From: Alphaproteobacteria bacterium | Lineage (GTDB): Bacteria > Pseudomonadota > Alphaproteobacteria > SP197 | NCBI GenBank assembly: GCA_009694045.1 | Contig: SHVY01000011.1 | Location: 1-64,000, forward strand | Direction: 5' to 3' | Length of the DNA: 64,000 bases | Part shown: positions 51,675 through 62,117 of the stretch, one piece after another | Position numbering within the stretch: position 1 is the first letter of the stretch | Layout: each line of letters begins with the position of its first letter | The notes under the pieces: model-generated | Databases searched by the model: none | What the model saw: the letters and a program-made list of their open reading frames with translations, nothing else | Told to the model about the DNA's origin: nothing | Translations under genes and position numbers: made by a program

Positions 51675-52588
51675 ATGGCCAGACGCCTGCCACACCTGAA
51701 CGCTCTGCGTGCCTTCGAGGCGGCCGGACGGCACGGCAGTTTCACGCGCGCGGCGGCGGAGCTGCATGTGACTCACGCCGCCATCAGCCATCAGGTGCGG
51801 GCGCTCGAGGAGCATCTCGGCGTGTCCCTGTTCCGGCGGACCACGCGGGCCGTGAAGCTGACCGACGCGGGTCAAACGCTGCTGCCGGTGATGACCAAGG
51901 CGCTTGATGCCATGGCGGATGCGATCCAGCGGCTCGGCGCCGACGACGCGACCGGTTCCCTGACGGTCGGCGTGACCCCGGCCTTCGCGGCCCGCTGGCT
52001 GGTGCCGCGCCTCGCCGGGTTTCAGGCCGCCCATCCCGAGATCGACGTGCGGCTGGCGCCGTCGTACCAGCTCGTCGATTTTACCCGCGACGAGGCCGAC
52101 CTGGCGGTGCGCTATGGGCACGGGCGCTGGTCTGGCGTGCGCGCCGACAAGCTGCTGTCCCTCGACACCGTTCCGGTGTGCAGCCCGGCGTTGCTCACGG
52201 GACCAAACCCGCTGCGGACGCCGGCCGACCTCAAGCACCACACCCTTCTGCACGATGACCTTGGCGAGGTCTGGCGCCGCTGGCTGGTGGCCGCCGGGAT
52301 CGACGGCATCGACCCGACCCGGGGTCCGAAGTTCGGCGACGAAAACCTGATGCTGCAGCAGCCATCCAGGGCCAGGGCGTCGCGGTGAGCGAGAGCGCGC
52401 TGGTCGCCACCGACATCGCCGCCGGCCGGTTGGTGCGGCCGTTCGACGTCGTGTTGCCATCCGCCGCCGGCTATTACGTGGTCTATCCCACCCGATCCGC
52501 CGATCGCCGCAAGGTCAAGGTCTTCCGCGACTGGCTGTTCGCCGAGGCGGAGGCCGCTACCGAGGGCCGGACCGTGGGTTCGCGGTAG
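51675..52588 (+). pseudogene. LysR family transcriptional regulator (GcvA-like), frameshifted
   Basis: LPHLNALRAFEAAGRHGSFTRAAAELHVTHAAISHQVRALEEHLGVSLFRR; break near 52361, then SESALVATDIAAGRLVRPFDVVLPSAAGYYVVYP in +1 frame. Confidence 0.88.
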
Positions 52589-53513
52589 AGTCGTGGCGCG
52601 GGCCGGCGGCGATCGACTTCTGGCGATCGAAATCGGCCCGCTTCTGGGCGATCTCCTCGGGGTTCAGCCGCGCGATGTTCGCGTAGTCGAGCTTCCAGTC
52701 CGGATCGGCGCTCCAGGCCAGGGGCGACTGCACGGTGGTGCGCGGGCCCGGGGCCGCCTCCAGGACGCGCAGGGCCAATTCCAGGGTGAAGGCCTGGGAG
52801 GCGGGGTCGTGCGGCCGCCCGGCGGCGTTGCCGAGGGGAAAATCGGAAAACAGCAACCGGGGCACGCCCACGTACTCGATGATGTCCTTGGCGCAGCCCA
52901 TGACGACGGTGGCGATCCCGGCCGCTTCCAGGAGCCGCGCGATCAGGGCCGCGGTCTGGTGGCAAACCGGGCAGTTGGGCACCAGGATCGCCGCGTCCGC
53001 GCCGTCGGCCTGGCAGCGGGCCACGATCTCGGGGCCGTCGCGGTCGAGCGTCATCCGGTGGCTGCGGTTGGTGGGCGCACCGTGGAATCGCGGCGCGAGG
53101 GCGATGCGACCCTCTTGCGCGCGACGGCGAAGTTCGGGAAGCGGAAAATAGGTGCCGGGATCCGCCGCCGTCGTGTGCTTGCGGTCGATGGCGATGTGGG
53201 AAATCCGGAGGTCGTGGTCCCGCGCCGCAGCGCCGGAATAGACATCGTGGAACTTGGCGGCCGCGTTGTAGGGCGCCCCGGGTCCCTGGTCCCCCTTGTC
53301 CGGCTGGTGGGGTGCCGCCGTGGTGACGAGGGCGACCCGGCTGGCGGCCAGCGGCTTGGCCAGCGGCTGGAACGGCACGCCGGCGTAGTGCGCCCATTCG
53401 TAGGGCGCGCCATAGCCCAGCGCCTGGTAGTACTCCTGGATCCGCGCGAGGTACGGGATCGGCGCGTCGTGGGACGGGGCAAAGCCAAAGGCATCCGCAC
53501 GGTCGGTGGTCAA
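52557..53513 (-). CDS. Glycine/sarcosine/betaine (or D-proline) reductase component B-like protein, Cys form
   Basis: IPYLARIQEYYQALGYGAPYEWAHYAGVPF; ILVPNCPVCHQTAALIARLLEAAGIATVVMGCAKDI; TTG start with GGAG upstream. Confidence 0.6.
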   Translation of the reverse strand: MTTDRADAFGFAPSHDAPIPYLARIQEYYQALGYGAPYEWAHYAGVPFQPLAKPLAASRVALVTTAAPHQPDKGDQGPGAPYNAAAKFHDVYSGAAARDHDLRISHIAIDRKHTTAADPGTYFPLPELRRRAQEGRIALAPRFHGAPTNRSHRMTLDRDGPEIVARCQADGADAAILVPNCPVCHQTAALIARLLEAAGIATVVMGCAKDIIEYVGVPRLLFSDFPLGNAAGRPHDPASQAFTLELALRVLEAAPGPRTTVQSPLAWSADPDWKLDYANIARLNPEEIAQKRADFDRQKSIAAGPRHDSTANPRSGPR

Positions 53514-53580
53514 ACGCCTGTCTCCTCGGTCGGCGGCGAATGATAGCATCCTCGGTCGGTGGGAAGGGGAAGGGGCCCCG

Positions 53581-54942
53581 ATGGTCGACCAGAGCCTGCG
53601 CGGGTTTCTCGACGATCTCGAGGCCAGGGGCGATCTGCATCGGATCACCCGATCGGTCGACCCCAGGTTCGAAATCGGGGCGATCCTGGCGTTGCGGGAT
53701 CGGGGACCGGCGCAGCTCTTCCAGAACGTCGCGGGCCACGCCCTTCCGCTGGTCGGCAACCTGTTCAACGGGCGCGATCGGATCGCCCGGGCGCTCGGCG
53801 TCCAGGCGGGCGATCTCGACGCCCATTGCCAGGAAGCGCTGCGCCGCCCGGTGCCGCCGCGCATCGTCGCCACGGCACCGGTTCAGGAGGTCGTACGGCG
53901 GCAGGATCTGGATCTCGGACGGCTCCTGCCCGTGCCGCACTGGTTCGAACGCGAGGCCGCGCCCTACATCACGGCCGGGGTGATCGTCGCCAAGGATCCC
54001 GAAACGGGTCGCCGCAACGTCTCGATCGCGCGGCTTCGCCTCGAAGGCGGTGCGCGGCTGCTGGCCGGCATCGCCCGCAATCATCACCTGGCGATCCTGG
54101 CCGAGAAGGCCCGGTCGCGCGGGCGTTCGCTCGAGATTGCCGTCGCCATCGGCAACCACGCCGCGGTGCTGCTCGGCTCGCAGATGTACGTGGCCCTCGG
54201 CGAGGACGAGTTCGACATCGCCGGCGGGTTGCTCGGCGCACCCGTCGACCTGGTGGCGTGCAAGACCGTCGATCTCGAGGTTCCGGCGGCGGCCGAGATC
54301 GTCCTCGAGGGCGTGCTCGATCCGGACCAGACGATCCCGGAAGGTCCGGTCTCGGAATTCCCCGGGTTCTACGTCGACTACGGGCCGGGCATCGGGGTCG
54401 AAATCCGCTGCGTCACCCAGCGGCACGATGCGATCTATCAGGCGATCCTGCCGGGATTGGCCGCCGAGCATTGCCTGCTCGGCGCCGTGGCGATCGGCGC
54501 GACCCTGACCCGCGACCTGCGTCGGGTCATCCCCGCCGTCCGCCGGGTGTTCGTGACCGAAGGCGGCATGGGGCGGCTGCACGCGGTCATCGCCATGCAT
54601 CGCCCGCGTCTGGGCGAAGGCAAGTGCGCGGCCCTGCTCGCCTTCGGAACCGTCAACCTGCTGAAGTTGATCACGGTCGTCGACGACGATATCGACCCGG
54701 AGGATTCGCGGGCCGTCGAGTGGTCGCTGGCCGCACGGTTCCGCGGGCACGAGGACCTGATCGTGCTGCCGGGGGTGAAGGCCGACCGCTGCGATCCCGT
54801 GCACGAGAACCTGGTGGTCACCAAGGTCGCCATGGTCGCAACGACTCGGCCGGGCGACGGCGAGCCCCACGGCCGTTCCGAGTTCGCCCGGCCGCCGCGG
54901 GACATCCTGGATCGCGTCACCCGCGACCTCGCCAGCTACTGA
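53581..54942 (+). CDS. UbiD family decarboxylase
   Basis: LRGFLDDLEARGDLHRITRSVDPRFEIGAI; EGPVSEFPGFYVDYG; HAVIAMHRPRLGEGK; VVDDDIDPEDSRAVEWSLAARF. Confidence 0.93.
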   Translation: MVDQSLRGFLDDLEARGDLHRITRSVDPRFEIGAILALRDRGPAQLFQNVAGHALPLVGNLFNGRDRIARALGVQAGDLDAHCQEALRRPVPPRIVATAPVQEVVRRQDLDLGRLLPVPHWFEREAAPYITAGVIVAKDPETGRRNVSIARLRLEGGARLLAGIARNHHLAILAEKARSRGRSLEIAVAIGNHAAVLLGSQMYVALGEDEFDIAGGLLGAPVDLVACKTVDLEVPAAAEIVLEGVLDPDQTIPEGPVSEFPGFYVDYGPGIGVEIRCVTQRHDAIYQAILPGLAAEHCLLGAVAIGATLTRDLRRVIPAVRRVFVTEGGMGRLHAVIAMHRPRLGEGKCAALLAFGTVNLLKLITVVDDDIDPEDSRAVEWSLAARFRGHEDLIVLPGVKADRCDPVHENLVVTKVAMVATTRPGDGEPHGRSEFARPPRDILDRVTRDLASY

Positions 54943-54961
54943 CGGATTGGGAGAACGACCC

Positions 54962-56434
54962 TTGACCGTGATCATCGACACGCGGCACGACCTGACCTTG
55001 GCCGGATTCTCTCGTGCGGCCTGGCAGGGTGAGCGGCTGGAGCCGACCCGCGCCGCCCTCGCCCGGGTGGCGGCGGCCCGCGAAGGATTCTTGCGTTATC
55101 TGGCGAACCTCGGCGACGGTTCGATCTACGGCGTCACCTCCGGCTGGGGCTACAACGCCAGGCGGCGCATTCAACCCGACGAGCAACACGCCTTCGACAA
55201 TCGGCCGCTGGTGGCCGGTGCTGCGTCGTTCGGCGACCCGCTACCAACCCGCGTGGTGCGCGGCATCCTGTTCGCCCGGCTCGCGAATCTGATCGACGGC
55301 CACAGCGCCACGACCCCGCGCATGGTCGAGGCGGTGGTCGCCATGCTGAACGGGGAGCGACCGGTGCCGCCGGTGCCGGCGGATGGCAACGGCTCGGCCG
55401 GCGAGATCCTGGCGCTCTATCACCTGTTCGCTCCGCTGTCGCAAACGTTGGATATGGCGGTCAAGGAGAAGGGCGGGCTGGTGAACGGCGCACCTTGCGC
55501 CGCCGCGCTCCTGGCCGACGGGGCTTTGGCGGCGGAGCGGCGCTGGGCACTCGCCGCCGAGGTCTTCGCCCTGTCGTTCGAGGCCATCCGGGCGCCCGTG
55601 GAATCGCTTGATCCGCTGCTCGGCGTCCTGTGGAACGACGCGGACGCGGCGGCGGCGCTGCATCTGCTCGGCCGGTTGCTCGCGGACGCCAGCGATGTCC
55701 GCCGCGGCTACCAGGCCCCGGTGAGCTTTCGGATTCTGCCGAAGGTGCTGGGGCGCGCCCTGCGCGCCCAGCGGGTGGCGGCGGCGGCGGCGAACGCGGC
55801 GCTGACGGCGGTGACCGACAACCCGGTCTACATCCCACCCGAGGCCGCGCATCCCGACGGGCGCTGTTTCTCGACCGGCGGCTATCACGACGCCAACGCC
55901 GTCCCGGCTCTGGATGCGTTGACCGCGAACGCCGCCGATCTCTGCCTGCTGGCGGAGCGCCATGCGACCAAGCTGTTGGACGGCGCCATGTCCGGTCTGC
56001 CCGACAAGCTGTTGCCAAACGCGGCCGCGATGCCGGGCGGCGTGGGATCGGTGGCCTATCTGCCGGCAGCGATCAACGGGTTCCTCGAAACCGCGCGGGC
56101 CGCCGCGACGGTGACGCTGCTGCCGGGGGCCGAGGGCTCCGGGTTCGGCCAGGACGACATCGCCTCGCCGATCTTCCCGGCCTGGCACAAGCACGAGACC
56201 GCCGGGCGCGCGCTGGAGCGGGCGCTCGCCGTGCTGGGCGTCGTTGCCTCCCAGGCCCTGCGGGTGACCGACCGGGGGGCGCCGCGTGCCCTGCGCGACC
56301 GGCTCGATCGCATCAGGAGTCTCGTCGCCCCGGTCGAGGAGCCGTCGCTCCGTGGGCTCGGATCGGAGTGTGGGGTGCTCGCGGATGCCTTCAGAGGCGA
56401 GATCTACGGCATCGTCGCCGCCGGGCCCGGATGA
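54962..56434 (+). CDS. Aromatic amino acid lyase (HAL/PAL) superfamily protein lacking canonical MIO Ala-Ser-Gly
   Basis: IYGVTSGWGYNARR, PADGNGSAGEILALYHLF in place of GSVGASGDLAPLAH, GLVNGAPCAAAL, TDNPVYIPPEAAHPDGRCFSTGGYHDAN. Confidence 0.85.
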   Translation: MTVIIDTRHDLTLAGFSRAAWQGERLEPTRAALARVAAAREGFLRYLANLGDGSIYGVTSGWGYNARRRIQPDEQHAFDNRPLVAGAASFGDPLPTRVVRGILFARLANLIDGHSATTPRMVEAVVAMLNGERPVPPVPADGNGSAGEILALYHLFAPLSQTLDMAVKEKGGLVNGAPCAAALLADGALAAERRWALAAEVFALSFEAIRAPVESLDPLLGVLWNDADAAAALHLLGRLLADASDVRRGYQAPVSFRILPKVLGRALRAQRVAAAAANAALTAVTDNPVYIPPEAAHPDGRCFSTGGYHDANAVPALDALTANAADLCLLAERHATKLLDGAMSGLPDKLLPNAAAMPGGVGSVAYLPAAINGFLETARAAATVTLLPGAEGSGFGQDDIASPIFPAWHKHETAGRALERALAVLGVVASQALRVTDRGAPRALRDRLDRIRSLVAPVEEPSLRGLGSECGVLADAFRGEIYGIVAAGPG

Positions 56435-56463
56435 TAGCTTCGCTCGACCGAGGGAGGGGTGCG

Positions 56464-57543
56464 ATGGGCTTCAACGAACAGGTGGATCGTGCGGGCGTGG
56501 TGTCGAGCTGCCGGGACCTGCTGCGGTTCCAGGCGATGTTCAGCCGGCACTTCGCGGGATCGCCGGCCAGGCGGTTCGGCAGGGACGGCGAGGCGGCGGT
56601 GCTGGCGGGCCTGGGGCGCTACGGCGAATACCGCGCCGGGCTGATCAAGGAGAACCTCAGGAAGGCGAAGGTGCCGCTGACGGCCCGGGGCCTGATCGAG
56701 CATTGGGACATGGCCGATGTCCACCTGCTGGAGGAGTCGGGCACGGGCGAGATCGCCGGAAGCCATCGCGCCGTCACCGTGACCACGAGCGATTCGGCCG
56801 ATTGGGAGCGTTGGCGGGAGTACGACAACGGGGTCGAACTCGCGCGGCTCTACTACCGCGGCGTCCTGCCCGGCATCGCCAAGGGGCTCAAGTGCGATGT
56901 CGCCTTCGATGTCGCGGCACTCGATCTGGCGAAGCCTTGGCCGGTCACGTGGACGGTCGCCGGTGCCGCGCCCGGCCGCAAGGGAGCGGTCAAGACCCGC
57001 ATCTTCGGCCGGCTGGACGATGCCGTGGCCATGGCGCGGCGGACCTCCATGAACAACGGGGCCCTGTATTTCTTCTGCGCCGACGAGGAGACCAAGCGCT
57101 TCGACATGCTGGGCGAGGCGGAGCTGCGGCAACACGTGCGCGACCTCGCCCACGAGCGCGCCGACCGCCAGAAGGCGGCGCACCAGGCCGCCGGCTGGGA
57201 CCTGAACGTGAAGACCCTGATGGACAATTGGGACGGCCAGCTCATCTCGATCTGGCAGTTCAATCCGGGCATGCTCACGCCGGGGACCTGGCACCAGGAC
57301 TGCACCTGGTGCCCCTACGCGGCGGCGTGGGACAAGCTCGGGTCACGCGCCCTGGACCTGGGCTACATCTATGACTACGAGCTGCACCCGACCTATTATC
57401 GGCGCTATCACCCGGACATGGTCGTGCAGTTCGAGGCGATCAAGACGCGGGGCGATTCCATGTGCAAGTTCCGCATCTCGCTGCCCGCGAAGCAGAAGCC
57501 GGGCGAGCCGGGATTCAAGGGCTATAACGGAAACGACGCGTGA
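56464..57543 (+). CDS. L-2-amino-thiazoline-4-carboxylic acid hydrolase (ATC hydrolase)-like protein
   Basis: HQDCTWCPYAAAWDKLGSRALDLGYIYDYELHPTYYRRYHPDMVVQFEAIKTRGDSMCKFRI pattern. Confidence 0.6.
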   Translation: MGFNEQVDRAGVVSSCRDLLRFQAMFSRHFAGSPARRFGRDGEAAVLAGLGRYGEYRAGLIKENLRKAKVPLTARGLIEHWDMADVHLLEESGTGEIAGSHRAVTVTTSDSADWERWREYDNGVELARLYYRGVLPGIAKGLKCDVAFDVAALDLAKPWPVTWTVAGAAPGRKGAVKTRIFGRLDDAVAMARRTSMNNGALYFFCADEETKRFDMLGEAELRQHVRDLAHERADRQKAAHQAAGWDLNVKTLMDNWDGQLISIWQFNPGMLTPGTWHQDCTWCPYAAAWDKLGSRALDLGYIYDYELHPTYYRRYHPDMVVQFEAIKTRGDSMCKFRISLPAKQKPGEPGFKGYNGNDA

Positions 57544-58643
57544 TCCATCTCGGTGGGGCGACGCAATCGCGCTTCGCTCCGGTCCGCGAGGCGTTCGCCG
57601 AGAACCTGAGGCTCGGCGAGGATCTGGGTGCCGGCTTCGCCGTGGTCCGTGACGGCGAGACCCTGGTCGACCTGTGGGGCGGTTACGCCGATGTCGCGCG
57701 GACGCGGGAGTGGCAGGCCGACACCCTGGTGAACATCTGGTCGGTGACGAAGGGGGTGGTGGCCTTGGCCGTGGCCCTGCTGGTGGATCGCGGCAAGCTC
57801 GCCTACGACGATGCCGTGGCGAAGCACTGGCCCGAGTTCGCCGCGGAAGGCAAGGGGGCGATCGGCGTCGGGGTGATGCTGTCGCATCAGGCGGGCCTCG
57901 CGGGCCTGCGCCAGCCCACGACGATCGAGGATTTCTACGCCTGGGACCCGATCGTCGCAGGCCTGGCGGCGCAGGCCCCGCTGTGGCCGCCCGGGACGGC
58001 CGCCGGATACCATTCCCTGACGTTCGGCCACCTCGCGGGCGAGTTGATCCGGCGGATCGATGGACGCTCGCCGGCGGCTTTCCTGCGGGAGGAGTTGGCA
58101 CGTCCGCTCGGCGCCGATTTCCATCTCGGCCTGGCCGCATCCGAGGAACCTCGCGTGGCGGAGATCCTTCCCCTCGTCGCCGATCCGCTGCCCGCCCTCC
58201 CGGCGATCGGGTGGTACGCCAACAACCCGCCGCTGGATCCCGCGTGGCCGAACGCGCGAACCTGGCGCGCGGCGGTGGTGCCGGGTGCCAACGGGCACGC
58301 GACCGCGCTCGCGCTGGCGCGCCTGTTCGGGGCGCTGGGCAGGCCCCGGCCGCTTCTGGGGACGGCCGCGCTCGCCGATCTTTCGCGCGAGCGGTTCGAC
58401 GGCATGGACCTGGTCCTCCAGGACCGCTCCCGGCTCGGTGCCGGGGTTTTCCTCAACCAGGACGGCGCCTACGGGCCAAACCCGGATGCGTTCGGGCACG
58501 GCGGCTGGGGCGGTTCGTGCGCCTTCTACGACCCGATCAAACGGGTCGGCGTCGGCTACGTCATGAACTGGATGCGCCCCGAGCCCCCGCCGCAACCCCG
58601 CAGACGCCGCCTGATCGACGCGCTCTACGCGGCGCTGTCGTAG
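57540..58643 (+). CDS. Serine hydrolase (class C beta-lactamase / EstB-like)
   Basis: NIWSVTKGVVALAVALLVDRG (SxxK), WPPGTAAGYHSLTFGHLAGELIRR (YxS), FGHGGWGGS (HGG). Confidence 0.93.
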   Translation: MIHLGGATQSRFAPVREAFAENLRLGEDLGAGFAVVRDGETLVDLWGGYADVARTREWQADTLVNIWSVTKGVVALAVALLVDRGKLAYDDAVAKHWPEFAAEGKGAIGVGVMLSHQAGLAGLRQPTTIEDFYAWDPIVAGLAAQAPLWPPGTAAGYHSLTFGHLAGELIRRIDGRSPAAFLREELARPLGADFHLGLAASEEPRVAEILPLVADPLPALPAIGWYANNPPLDPAWPNARTWRAAVVPGANGHATALALARLFGALGRPRPLLGTAALADLSRERFDGMDLVLQDRSRLGAGVFLNQDGAYGPNPDAFGHGGWGGSCAFYDPIKRVGVGYVMNWMRPEPPPQPRRRRLIDALYAALS

Positions 58644-58652
58644 GTCACGCGG

Positions 58653-59318
58653 TCAACCACCGTTCTCGTCGGACAAGCGCGGCAAGCCTAAAGCCTTCGC
58701 CGCGGACAACAGCGTGTGGCCGGCCTCGGCGACGAAGGCCTGGCGGATCTTGCGGCCCTCCTCGGTCCTGACCGGAATGTTCTGCAGGTTGGGGTCGGTC
58801 GAGGCGAGGCGGCCCGTGGAGGCTCCGGCCATGGCGTAGGAGGTGTGCACACGCCCGGTGGCCGGGTTGATCTGCTCGGTCAGGGTATCGGTGTAGGTGC
58901 TCTTGAGCTTGGCGAGCTGGCGCCATTCCAGCACCATGGCCGGCAGGGCATGACCCTGGGCAGCCAGATCCTCGAGGATGTCGGCGCCGATAGCGTACGC
59001 GCCGGTCTTGCCCTTCTTGCCGCCGCCCAGGCCCTGCTCGTCGAACAGCACCTCGCCGAGCTGCTTGGGCGAGCCGATCGAGAACGGCCGGCCAACGAGC
59101 TTGTGGATCGCGTGCTCGAGCGTCACCAGCCGCCGGCCGAAATCATCGGACAGCCGAACCAGCGTCGCCCGGTCCCGCCGCAGGTCGTGGCCATCTCCCA
59201 TCGGGACAAGCCTCGCGACGGGCCGGCCATGACGGGTAATGACGATTTCTTCGCCACGTTCGGCCCGTTCCAGAAGCGCGGAGAGCTTGTTCTTGGCCTC
59301 GAAGGCGCCGATGCGCAT
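58653..59318 (-). pseudogene. Chimeric ORF: Phd-type antitoxin N-terminus fused to duplicated polA fragment
   Basis: MRIGAFEAKNKLSALLERAERGEEIVITRHGRPVARLVP followed by RATLVRLSDDFGRRL... identical to PolA residues except three. Confidence 0.9.
58702..59175. repeat. 474-bp direct duplication of polA internal segment (source copy 60067-60540)
   Basis: By-eye alignment at constant offset of 1365 bp; 4 mismatches, no indels. Confidence 0.95.
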
Positions 59319-59390: not shown

Positions 59391-62117
59391 TTAGTGCGCC
59401 TCGGCCCAGGAGCGGCCATGGCCGGTGTCGACGACCAGGGGCACGGTGAGTTTGGCGGCGCCTTCCATGGTGCGTTTGACCACGGCGGCGGTCGTCTCCA
59501 ACTCGGCGTCGGGCACCTCGAACAACAGCTCGTCGTGGACCTGAAGCAGCATGCGGGCCGCGAGCTTCGCCTTGGCCAGGGCGGGCGGTACGCGGATCAT
59601 CGCCCGCTTGATGATGTCGGCGGCCGCGCCCTGCAGCGGCGCGTTGATCGCCGCCCGTTCGTAGAAGCCGCGCCGCGCCGGGTTCTTGTCGGCGATCCCG
59701 GGGGTATGGACCCGGCGGCCGAACGCCGTCGTCACGTAGCCGTGGCCGCGGGCGAACGCCTTGGTCCGCTCCATGTAGTCGCGGATCCCGGGATAGCGCT
59801 CGAAGTACGCCTTGATGTACGCCGCCGCGTCGCCTTGCGGGATGCCGAGCTGGCGGGCGAGGCCGAAGGCGCTGATGCCGTAGATGATCCCGAAGTTGAT
59901 GGCCTTGGCGTTGCGCCGGACCATGGGGTCCATGCCCGCCACCGGGACCCCGAACACCTGGCTCGCGGTCAAGGCGTGGATGTCCACGCCGGCGGCGAAC
60001 GCCTGGCTGAGCGCCGGCACGTCGGCCACGTGGGCCAGCAGCCTGAGCTCGATCTGCGAGTAGTCGGCGGACAACAGCGTGTGGCCGGCCTCGGCGACGA
60101 AGGCCTGGCGGATCTTGCGGCCCTCCTCGGTCCTGACCGGAATGTTCTGCAGGTTGGGGTCGGTCGAGGCGAGGCGGCCCGTGGAGGCTCCGGCCATGGC
60201 GTAGGATGTGTGCACACGCCCGGTGGCCGGGTTGATCTGCTCGGTCAGGGTATCGGTGTAGGTGCTCTTGAGCTTGGCGAGCTGGCGCCATTCCAGCACC
60301 CTGGCCGGCAGGGCATGACCCTGGGCAGCCAGATCCTCGAGGATGTCGGCGCCGGTAGCGTACGCGCCGGTCTTGCCCTTCTTGCCGCCGCCCAGGCCCT
60401 GCTCGTCGAACAGCACCTCGCCGAGCTGCTTGGGCGAGCCGATCGAGAACGGCCGGCCAGCGAGCTTGTGGATCGCGTGCTCGAGCGTCACCAGCCGCCG
60501 GCCGAAATCATCGGACAGCCGAACCAGCGTCGCCCGGTCCACCTTGATCCCGGCCCGTTCCATGTCGCGGAGCACCGGGATCAGGGGCCGCTCGACGGTC
60601 TCGTACAGGGTGACCAGATGCTCGGGCACCAGCCGCGGCTTGAGCAAGCGATGGAGTCTGAGGGTCACGTCGGCGTCCTCGGCGGCGTAATCGCGGGCGC
60701 GGTCGAGCGCCACCAGGTCGAAGGTCACCTGGCCCTTGCCGCTGCCGGCCACGTCCTTGAACGCGATGGTGGTGTGGTCCAGGTGGTGCTTGGCGAGGAA
60801 ATCCATGTTGTGCTCGTGCAGCCCGCCTTCGAGCACGAAGGACAGCAGCATGGTGTCGTCGACGGGGGTCACGTCGATGCCGTAACTGGCTAGCACCACC
60901 GCGTCGTACTTGATGTTGTGGCCGATCTTGAGAACCGCCGGGTCGGCCAGCAGCGGCTTGAGCCGGGCCAGACCGGTCGCGCGGTCGATCTGGCGCACCG
61001 GCTGGTCGAACGCGTCGCGCTGGCGGTGGGCGAGCGGCACGTAACACGCCTGGCCCGGAACCAGGGCCAGCGAGACGCCGACCAGCTCGGCCTGGGTGGC
61101 GTCGAGCGAGGTCGTCTCGGTATCGACCGCGACCCAGCCCTGGCGCGTCGCGCGCGCGATCCAATCGTCGAGCCGGTCCAGGGCCTGGATCAGCTCATAG
61201 CCGGTCGTCGCCACGGGCTCCGCCGGTTTCGCCGCCGTCTTCTCCGGCTGGGTGCCGAGCCAGGCGTAGGCCCGGGGGATCATCGACTTGAAGCCCTGGG
61301 CCTCGAGGAAGCCGATCAGGGTGGGGGCGTCCGGCTTGCGCACCGTCAGATCGTCGAGCGGGGTGGGCAGCGGGACATCGTCCCTGAGGGTGACGAGACG
61401 CAGGGATACGCGGGCGAGCTCGGCGTGGGTTTCCAGGTTCTCGCGCCGCTTCGGCTGCTTGATCTCCGCCGTGTGGGCGAGAACGCTCTCCACGTCACCG
61501 TAGGCGCCGATCAGCTCGGCCGCGGTCTTAACGCCGATGCCGGGGATGCCGGGCACGTTGTCGCTGGAATCGCCCGCCAGGGCCTGGACCTGGATCACCT
61601 TGTCGGGGGTCACGCCGAACTTCTCCAGCACCTCCTTCTCGCCGATGGGCCTGCCCTTGATGGCGTCGTACATGACGACGCCGTGGCGGATGAGCTGCAT
61701 CAGGTCCTTGTCGGAGGAGACGATGAAGACCTCGGCGCCGACGTCGCAGGCCTGCCGGACGTAGGTGGCGATGATGTCGTCCGCCTCGAACCCCGCGAGC
61801 TCGATGGCCGCGATGTTGAGGGCGCGGGAGGCCTCGCGCACCAGGGCGAACTGGGGCACCAGCTCGGGCGGGGCCTCGGGGCGGTGCGCCTTGTACTCGG
61901 GGTAGATGTCGTTGCGGAAGGTCCGCCGGCCGGCGTCAAAGATGCACGCGATCGAGTCCGCTTGGGTATCGGCCAGGACCTTCATCACCATATTGGTGAA
62001 GCCGAACACAGCGTTGACCTGAGTTCCATCCGGCCGGGGCATCGGCGGCAAGGCGTGAAAGGCCCTGAAGATGAACCCGGACGCGTCGATCAGGACGAGA
62101 CGATGGGGCTTCGCCAT
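59391..62117 (-). CDS. polA: DNA polymerase I
   Basis: Full-length: LVLIDASGFIFRAFHALP 5' nuclease, GWVAVDTETTSLD exonuclease domain, LLSADYSQIELRLLAH, VHDELLFEVP. Confidence 0.98.
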   Translation of the reverse strand: MAKPHRLVLIDASGFIFRAFHALPPMPRPDGTQVNAVFGFTNMVMKVLADTQADSIACIFDAGRRTFRNDIYPEYKAHRPEAPPELVPQFALVREASRALNIAAIELAGFEADDIIATYVRQACDVGAEVFIVSSDKDLMQLIRHGVVMYDAIKGRPIGEKEVLEKFGVTPDKVIQVQALAGDSSDNVPGIPGIGVKTAAELIGAYGDVESVLAHTAEIKQPKRRENLETHAELARVSLRLVTLRDDVPLPTPLDDLTVRKPDAPTLIGFLEAQGFKSMIPRAYAWLGTQPEKTAAKPAEPVATTGYELIQALDRLDDWIARATRQGWVAVDTETTSLDATQAELVGVSLALVPGQACYVPLAHRQRDAFDQPVRQIDRATGLARLKPLLADPAVLKIGHNIKYDAVVLASYGIDVTPVDDTMLLSFVLEGGLHEHNMDFLAKHHLDHTTIAFKDVAGSGKGQVTFDLVALDRARDYAAEDADVTLRLHRLLKPRLVPEHLVTLYETVERPLIPVLRDMERAGIKVDRATLVRLSDDFGRRLVTLEHAIHKLAGRPFSIGSPKQLGEVLFDEQGLGGGKKGKTGAYATGADILEDLAAQGHALPARVLEWRQLAKLKSTYTDTLTEQINPATGRVHTSYAMAGASTGRLASTDPNLQNIPVRTEEGRKIRQAFVAEAGHTLLSADYSQIELRLLAHVADVPALSQAFAAGVDIHALTASQVFGVPVAGMDPMVRRNAKAINFGIIYGISAFGLARQLGIPQGDAAAYIKAYFERYPGIRDYMERTKAFARGHGYVTTAFGRRVHTPGIADKNPARRGFYERAAINAPLQGAAADIIKRAMIRVPPALAKAKLAARMLLQVHDELLFEVPDAELETTAAVVKRTMEGAAKLTVPLVVDTGHGRSWAEAH

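Follow-up and report, generated by a model that had tools for sequence, protein, structure and literature searches.

Organization of the locus

The window analyzed here, 64,000 nucleotides of contig SHVY01000011.1 of an alphaproteobacterium, carries a gene group in which a UbiD-family protein, predicted to be a decarboxylase dependent on prenylated flavin mononucleotide (prFMN), is paired with a PF00221 lyase devoid of the tripeptide that forms the 4-methylideneimidazole-5-one (MIO) prosthetic group. The window lies in contig C12 of a 3.02-Mb genome (G000) that is 92% complete. The UbiD and lyase genes are followed on the same strand by genes for an ATC_hydrolase-like protein and a serine hydrolase, with successive gaps of 19-25 bp and 29 bp and then a 4-bp overlap, and no terminator-like site was seen from UbiD to the start of the serine hydrolase gene. 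On the opposite strand, a GrdB/PrdB-like gene begins with a TTG codon 67 bp from UbiD. The original prediction had described this nearly contiguous four-gene run with its divergent neighbor, and the gene calls bear it out. A LysR gene is also present beside the GrdB-like gene as described; it is convergent with that gene and its reading frame is broken. Regarding the predicted families, UbiD, the lyase and the serine hydrolase are strongly supported in Pfam, whereas the ATC_hydrolase and GrdB/PrdB assignments fall below their cut-offs (Table 1).

Table 1. Genes of the flagged locus, with positions in the window
Gene product	Position	Strand	Family and standing
UbiD-family prFMN decarboxylase (predicted)	53581-54942	+	PF01977/PF20695/PF20696; core of conserved pair
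MIO-less PF00221 lyase	54962 (TTG) or 54968 to 56434	+	PF00221; core of conserved pair
ATC_hydrolase-like protein	56464-57543	+	PF14196 below cut-off; same operon, lineage-specific
EstA-type serine hydrolase, class C beta-lactamase fold	57540-58643	+	PF00144; same operon, lineage-specific
GrdB/PrdB-like Cys protein	52557-53513	-	TIGR04483 weak; divergent neighbor
GcvA-like LysR regulator, frameshifted	51675-52588	+	Convergent with GrdB-like gene; operon link unproven

Conservation of the UbiD-lyase pair

Among 16 genomes of the window's own order, six encode a UbiD protein of this clade, and in all six its gene adjoins the lyase gene, in both gene orders. Phylogenetic analysis placed the UbiD-linked lyases (15 rows) in one clade with a support of 97/98, of which the lyases of the window and of G163, the nearest relative with the pair, form the first branch. 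This invariable adjacency, together with the single lyase clade, indicates that the two genes are conserved together as a unit, and the earlier proposal that lyase and UbiD make up a catabolic unit is thereby supported. In four of the six genomes, the pair lies beside genes for phosphoglycerate kinase, glyceraldehyde-3-phosphate dehydrogenase and transketolase, and no Ert genes (described below) occur there. In G163, neither hydrolase follows the pair; the UbiD gene adjoining the lyase in that genome is frameshifted (L027/L135 8507-9854, recovered as two tblastn pieces).

The UbiD protein contains three Pfam domains above cut-off, PF01977 (189 bits), PF20695 and PF20696, and is 65-75% identical to plasmid-encoded UbiD proteins of Rhizobium, Ensifer and Thalassospira. 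Residues R151, E254, E259 and H297 are identical in 47 of 47 homologues, so that the catalytic Arg-Glu-Glu set is present, as is UbiX for the supply of prFMN, which is encoded elsewhere in the genome (G000:C50). The closest solved relative is 6h6v/6h6x (295 bits), which we take to be HmfF. The two proteins are similar over their full length, including the catalytic Arg and Glu residues, whereas the gene context of the window's UbiD is not the same. Desulfination by UbiD was also considered, and no evidence for it emerged.

A third type of PF00221 lyase

The lyase contains a PF00221 domain (180.7 bits) and the corresponding MIO-lyase fold. Its AlphaFold model (predicted local distance difference test score, pLDDT, 78; predicted template modeling score, pTM, 0.84) matches structures of histidine ammonia-lyase (HAL), tyrosine ammonia-lyase (TAL) and ergothionase about equally, with a template modeling (TM) score of ~0.8 to HAL and TAL. 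The absence of the MIO-forming Ala-Ser-Gly, already pointed out in the original prediction, was confirmed: at the site where HutH has GASGD, the lyase has GSAGE, and its family GSAGE/GGAGE, with one residue fewer, ASG being aligned with SAG-E. The tripeptide is likewise missing from all of the first 27 sequences of the lyase subfamily, which carry GxGGAGE or variants instead. Ergothionase itself has no MIO (PMC13405746).

Comparison with the ergothionase of T. denticola (6s7j) revealed that the PF00221 fold and two residues common to HAL and ergothionase are retained, namely Tyr53 (36 of 37 subfamily sequences) and the Arg of the QDPLSFR motif (37 of 37). In contrast, the MIO site is altered in another way, the Glu at the catalytic position (Glu411 of ergothionase) is found in none of the 37 sequences and is replaced by Asp, Asn or Thr, and Lys is not kept at the Lys383 position in the sequences displayed; Lys383 and Glu411 presumably have catalytic roles in ergothionase. 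The relationship to HutH is similar in kind, since the fold and several active-site residues are shared, whereas Ala-Ser-Gly is lost and the catalytic Glu is replaced. Scores against HutH models are 134-143 bits, compared with cut-offs of 524-539, and the lyase profile scores 90 bits against ergothionase 6s7j and 153 bits against HAL 7tqr, indicating that ergothionase is not its closest relative. A long, fully supported branch separates the subfamily from both HutH and the ergothionase-like proteins. Judged by its residues, the lyase is therefore a third PF00221 type, lacking the MIO tripeptide as well as the Glu and Lys of ergothionase.

The subfamily occurs in ~17 of 385 alphaproteobacterial genomes (18 matches, one of them only 29% identical), and the window's genome contains three copies. 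When the lyase alone served as query against named genomes, no match was obtained. One member, in G366, lies directly behind a urocanase gene. The 2.7-Mb genome G086 carries at least eight MIO-less lyase genes, six of them within ~10 kb (L041 565-10985, L045 9062-12219).

Ergothioneine-type neighborhoods of related UbiD genes

When named genomes were scanned with the window's UbiD clade, 49 loci were recovered. Of these, 43 were scored together with four plasmid loci, giving 47 UbiD-clade loci. Several of the loci covered by the analysis come from metagenome bins. As simple gene calling failed on L109, L112 and L113, the presence of each family was scored with tblastn. The accompanying genes resemble those for four enzymes that curated NCBIfam equivalog models assign to ergothioneine utilization, namely ErtD (hydantoin-5-propionate amidohydrolase), ErtE (N-carbamyl-L-glutamate amidohydrolase), thiohydantoin desulfurase and thiourocanate hydratase, and representative neighbors exceed the respective cut-offs (ErtD, 772 vs 600; ErtE, 571 vs 520; desulfurase, 611 vs 440; hydratase, 1020 vs 930). 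ErtE-like genes are present in 34 loci, ErtD-like genes in 31, UbiX in 25, thiourocanate hydratase-type genes in 14 and thiohydantoin desulfurase in 12. The lyase slot is taken either by the window's family (11 loci) or by ergothionase-like proteins (nine), one or the other being found in 19 loci; the ergothionase-like neighbor in L121 has 6s7j as its top solved match (253 bits). None of the 47 loci combines a lyase with the desulfurase (Fisher p = 0.0006, uncorrected for kinship). Ergothioneine is an antioxidant of mushrooms, and the original prediction had named ergothioneine and thiourocanate as candidate substrates, a lead that the company of these four gene families supports.

The clusters can be categorized into four types. 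In type 1, represented by Nitratireductor, Bradyrhizobium and Thalassospira, ErtD, ErtE, desulfurase, hydratase and UbiD occur with no linked lyase. In type 2 (Rhizobium jaguaris, Mesorhizobium, Rhodobacteraceae), UbiD is accompanied by a lyase of the window's family and, in most cases, by UbiX, ErtD and ErtE, and type 3 combines an ergothionase-like lyase with UbiD (Komagataeibacter, Mesorhizobium, Paenibacillus). Type 4 contains lyase, ErtD, ErtE, desulfurase and hydratase but no UbiD. The UbiD tree intermingles types 1-3, and the ErtD and ErtE trees intermingle all four types, implying that one UbiD and one end route have been joined to different entries. Compared with known ergothioneine utilization (ert) clusters, which comprise lyase, thiourocanate hydratase, thiohydantoin desulfurase, ErtD and ErtE, these loci share the ErtD-like and ErtE-like genes and the lyase superfamily; they differ in the addition of UbiD and UbiX and, in all loci with linked lyase and UbiD genes, in the absence of the desulfurase as well as the hydratase. 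The window locus departs further, having no ErtD, ErtE, hydratase or desulfurase gene nearby.

In the R. tropici CIAT 899 plasmid (L106 5339-11838), luciferase-like and acyl-CoA-dehydrogenase-like genes and a gene for an NlpA lipoprotein flank lyase and UbiD, and recall organosulfur uptake and oxidation.

Proposed function of the pair

Based on these comparisons, the UbiD-lyase pair is, more likely than not, the functional core of the locus and a reduced branch of a widespread, uncharacterized module for the catabolism of imidazole betaines of the histidine or ergothioneine type. The MIO-less lyase would expel an already activated amine, such as a trimethylammonium group, leaving a urocanate-like acrylate, and the prFMN-dependent UbiD would then act on this product or on an acid derived from it. 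The route towards glutamate would be completed in relatives by a hydantoinase resembling ErtD and a carbamoylase resembling ErtE. An enzyme without MIO is expected to need a good leaving group for elimination, such as the trimethylammonium of ergothioneine, and both the substrate class and the amine elimination are inferred. Supporting leads for betaine elimination are the exchange of the lyase for an ergothionase-like protein, the betaine-type ABC transporter encoded after the lyase in R. jaguaris, the OpuAC protein of the Paenibacillus cluster and the urocanase neighbor in G366.

Several observations weigh against this assignment. No decarboxylase is required in the route for ergothioneine that the names of the NCBIfam families imply. 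The departure of the lyase from ergothionase at the Glu and Lys positions suggests that its substrate may differ. In the window's genome, no protein reaches the cut-off for ErtD (best score 201, cut-off 600), ErtE (best score 344, cut-off 520) or thiourocanate hydratase (best score 712, cut-off 930). Furthermore, R. freirei (G387) and G391 each hold a full ergothioneine-type set without UbiD plus a separate UbiD cluster; the two therefore look non-redundant, and the substrate of the UbiD clusters may be something other than ergothioneine.

A simpler couple analogous to phenylalanine ammonia-lyase and ferulic acid decarboxylase, in which a betaine or amino acid is turned by the lyase into an aryl or heteroaryl acrylate, from which UbiD forms a vinyl compound by decarboxylation, and ErtD and ErtE of other genomes are mere neighbors, would account for the four same-family relatives in which lyase and UbiD form an isolated pair next to housekeeping genes. 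Decarboxylation of aryl acrylates by Fdc1-type UbiD enzymes is also established. However, the nearest solved UbiD is 6h6v rather than Fdc1, most UbiD-clade loci hold ErtD or ErtE, and the mixing of clusters with and without UbiD in the ErtD and ErtE trees points to a common end route in which the side-chain carboxylate is kept, so that such a couple is considered rather unlikely. The same mixing makes it less likely that UbiD removes the acrylate carboxylate in every cluster.

A further reading is that a third, MIO-independent lyase branch cooperates with a prFMN enzyme that takes over the hydratase and desulfurase steps, in which case UbiD would catalyze a novel conversion of a (thio)urocanate-type intermediate during betaine catabolism; this reading is regarded as unlikely. 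More broadly, the sequence comparisons point to an uncharacterized variant of ergothioneine breakdown centered on the pair, with the other flagged genes being mostly local neighbors. The pair offers a way, through genomics, to approach a step that is unassigned in how bacteria turn over ergothioneine and other betaines derived from histidine, and it adds an uncharacterized clade of MIO-less lyases whose activity can be tested. No report on UbiD enzymes in an ergothioneine-type pathway was found in the literature searched, whose coverage mostly excludes subscription journals; the proposal would place UbiD enzymes in a pathway for which no earlier report of them was found.

The accompanying hydrolases and the GrdB-like protein

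The ATC-like protein scores 24.7 bits against PF14196, below the gathering cut-off of 28.1, and the AlphaFold model of the protein alone (pLDDT 32) gives no support for the fold; a role as a ring-opening hydrolase is speculative. Three close relatives (68-70% identity) were found among the 385 genomes, none adjoining UbiD: those in G114 and G217 lie beside Rieske oxygenase genes, and that in G163 lies beside a glutathione synthetase gene. A wider search for contexts of the ATC-like gene added nothing, and a plasmid search with the protein gave no match. The serine hydrolase is a confident PF00144 member (248 bits) with 5gmx and 5gkv as the closest solved structures, and the SVTK (SxxK) motif in its translation is consistent with EstA/family VIII.

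As the window's genome has no ErtD or ErtE above cut-off, these two hydrolases could stand in for them, a suggestion drawn from their position alone. The ATC-like protein would then open the ring in the role of ErtD, and the EstA-like protein would remove the carbamoyl group in that of ErtE, or the two may not fill these roles at all. Such non-orthologous replacement around a conserved pair would fit the operon shared with UbiD and lyase and the lack of ErtD and ErtE above cut-off in G163 as well as in G000; ATC hydrolase likewise yields an N-carbamoyl amino acid, provided that the resemblance holds. Nevertheless, esterase activity is what EstA-type enzymes are known for, the PF14196 score is below cut-off, the model gives no fold support, and the ATC-like gene of G163 is unlinked to the pair, so that replacement is considered speculative and unlikely.

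The original prediction had suggested that the genes, GrdB and ATC hydrolase included, could act in sequence on a heterocycle that is derived from an amino acid or contains sulfur or selenium. The close packing of the genes in the window and a common divergent promoter region are in line with a single pathway of all five; however, relatives of the GrdB-like, ATC-like and EstA-like proteins were detected by tblastn in none of the 47 UbiD-clade loci, and in G163 the ATC-like gene is unlinked to the pair and a GrdB-like gene was not found. A five-gene pathway is hence very improbable. The co-occurrence proposed across genomes accordingly holds for UbiD and lyase but not for the PF14196-type protein.

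The GrdB-like gene is probably outside the pathway. Its product scores 76 bits against PrdB TIGR04483 (cut-off 300) and 27 against the subfamily model (cut-off 65), neither score qualifying it as a glycine/proline reductase protein B. Relatives occur in 45 of the 385 genomes, examples being those in L089, L090, L092, L095 and L098. These proteins form a separate Sec/Cys family in which selenocysteine is frequent; TGA opens the (U/C)PVC motif in five displayed relatives, and Cys takes this position in the window. SelB was above cut-off in nine of 10 TGA-bearing genomes tested, the tenth being 77% complete, and in none of five Cys-only genomes, including that of the window. A CoA-transferase III gene adjoins the GrdB-like gene in eight of 15 loci.

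Other features

The LysR frame is interrupted near 52360-52385 (open reading frames, ORFs, 51675-52388 and 52385-52588), a break that may be genuine or an assembly error. Behind the serine hydrolase gene, the ORF at 58653-59318 (-) represents a partial duplication of polA (59391-62117), in which 161 residues are 96% identical to PolA residues 524-684 and are preceded by an N-terminus that, judged by eye, resembles Phd/YefM.

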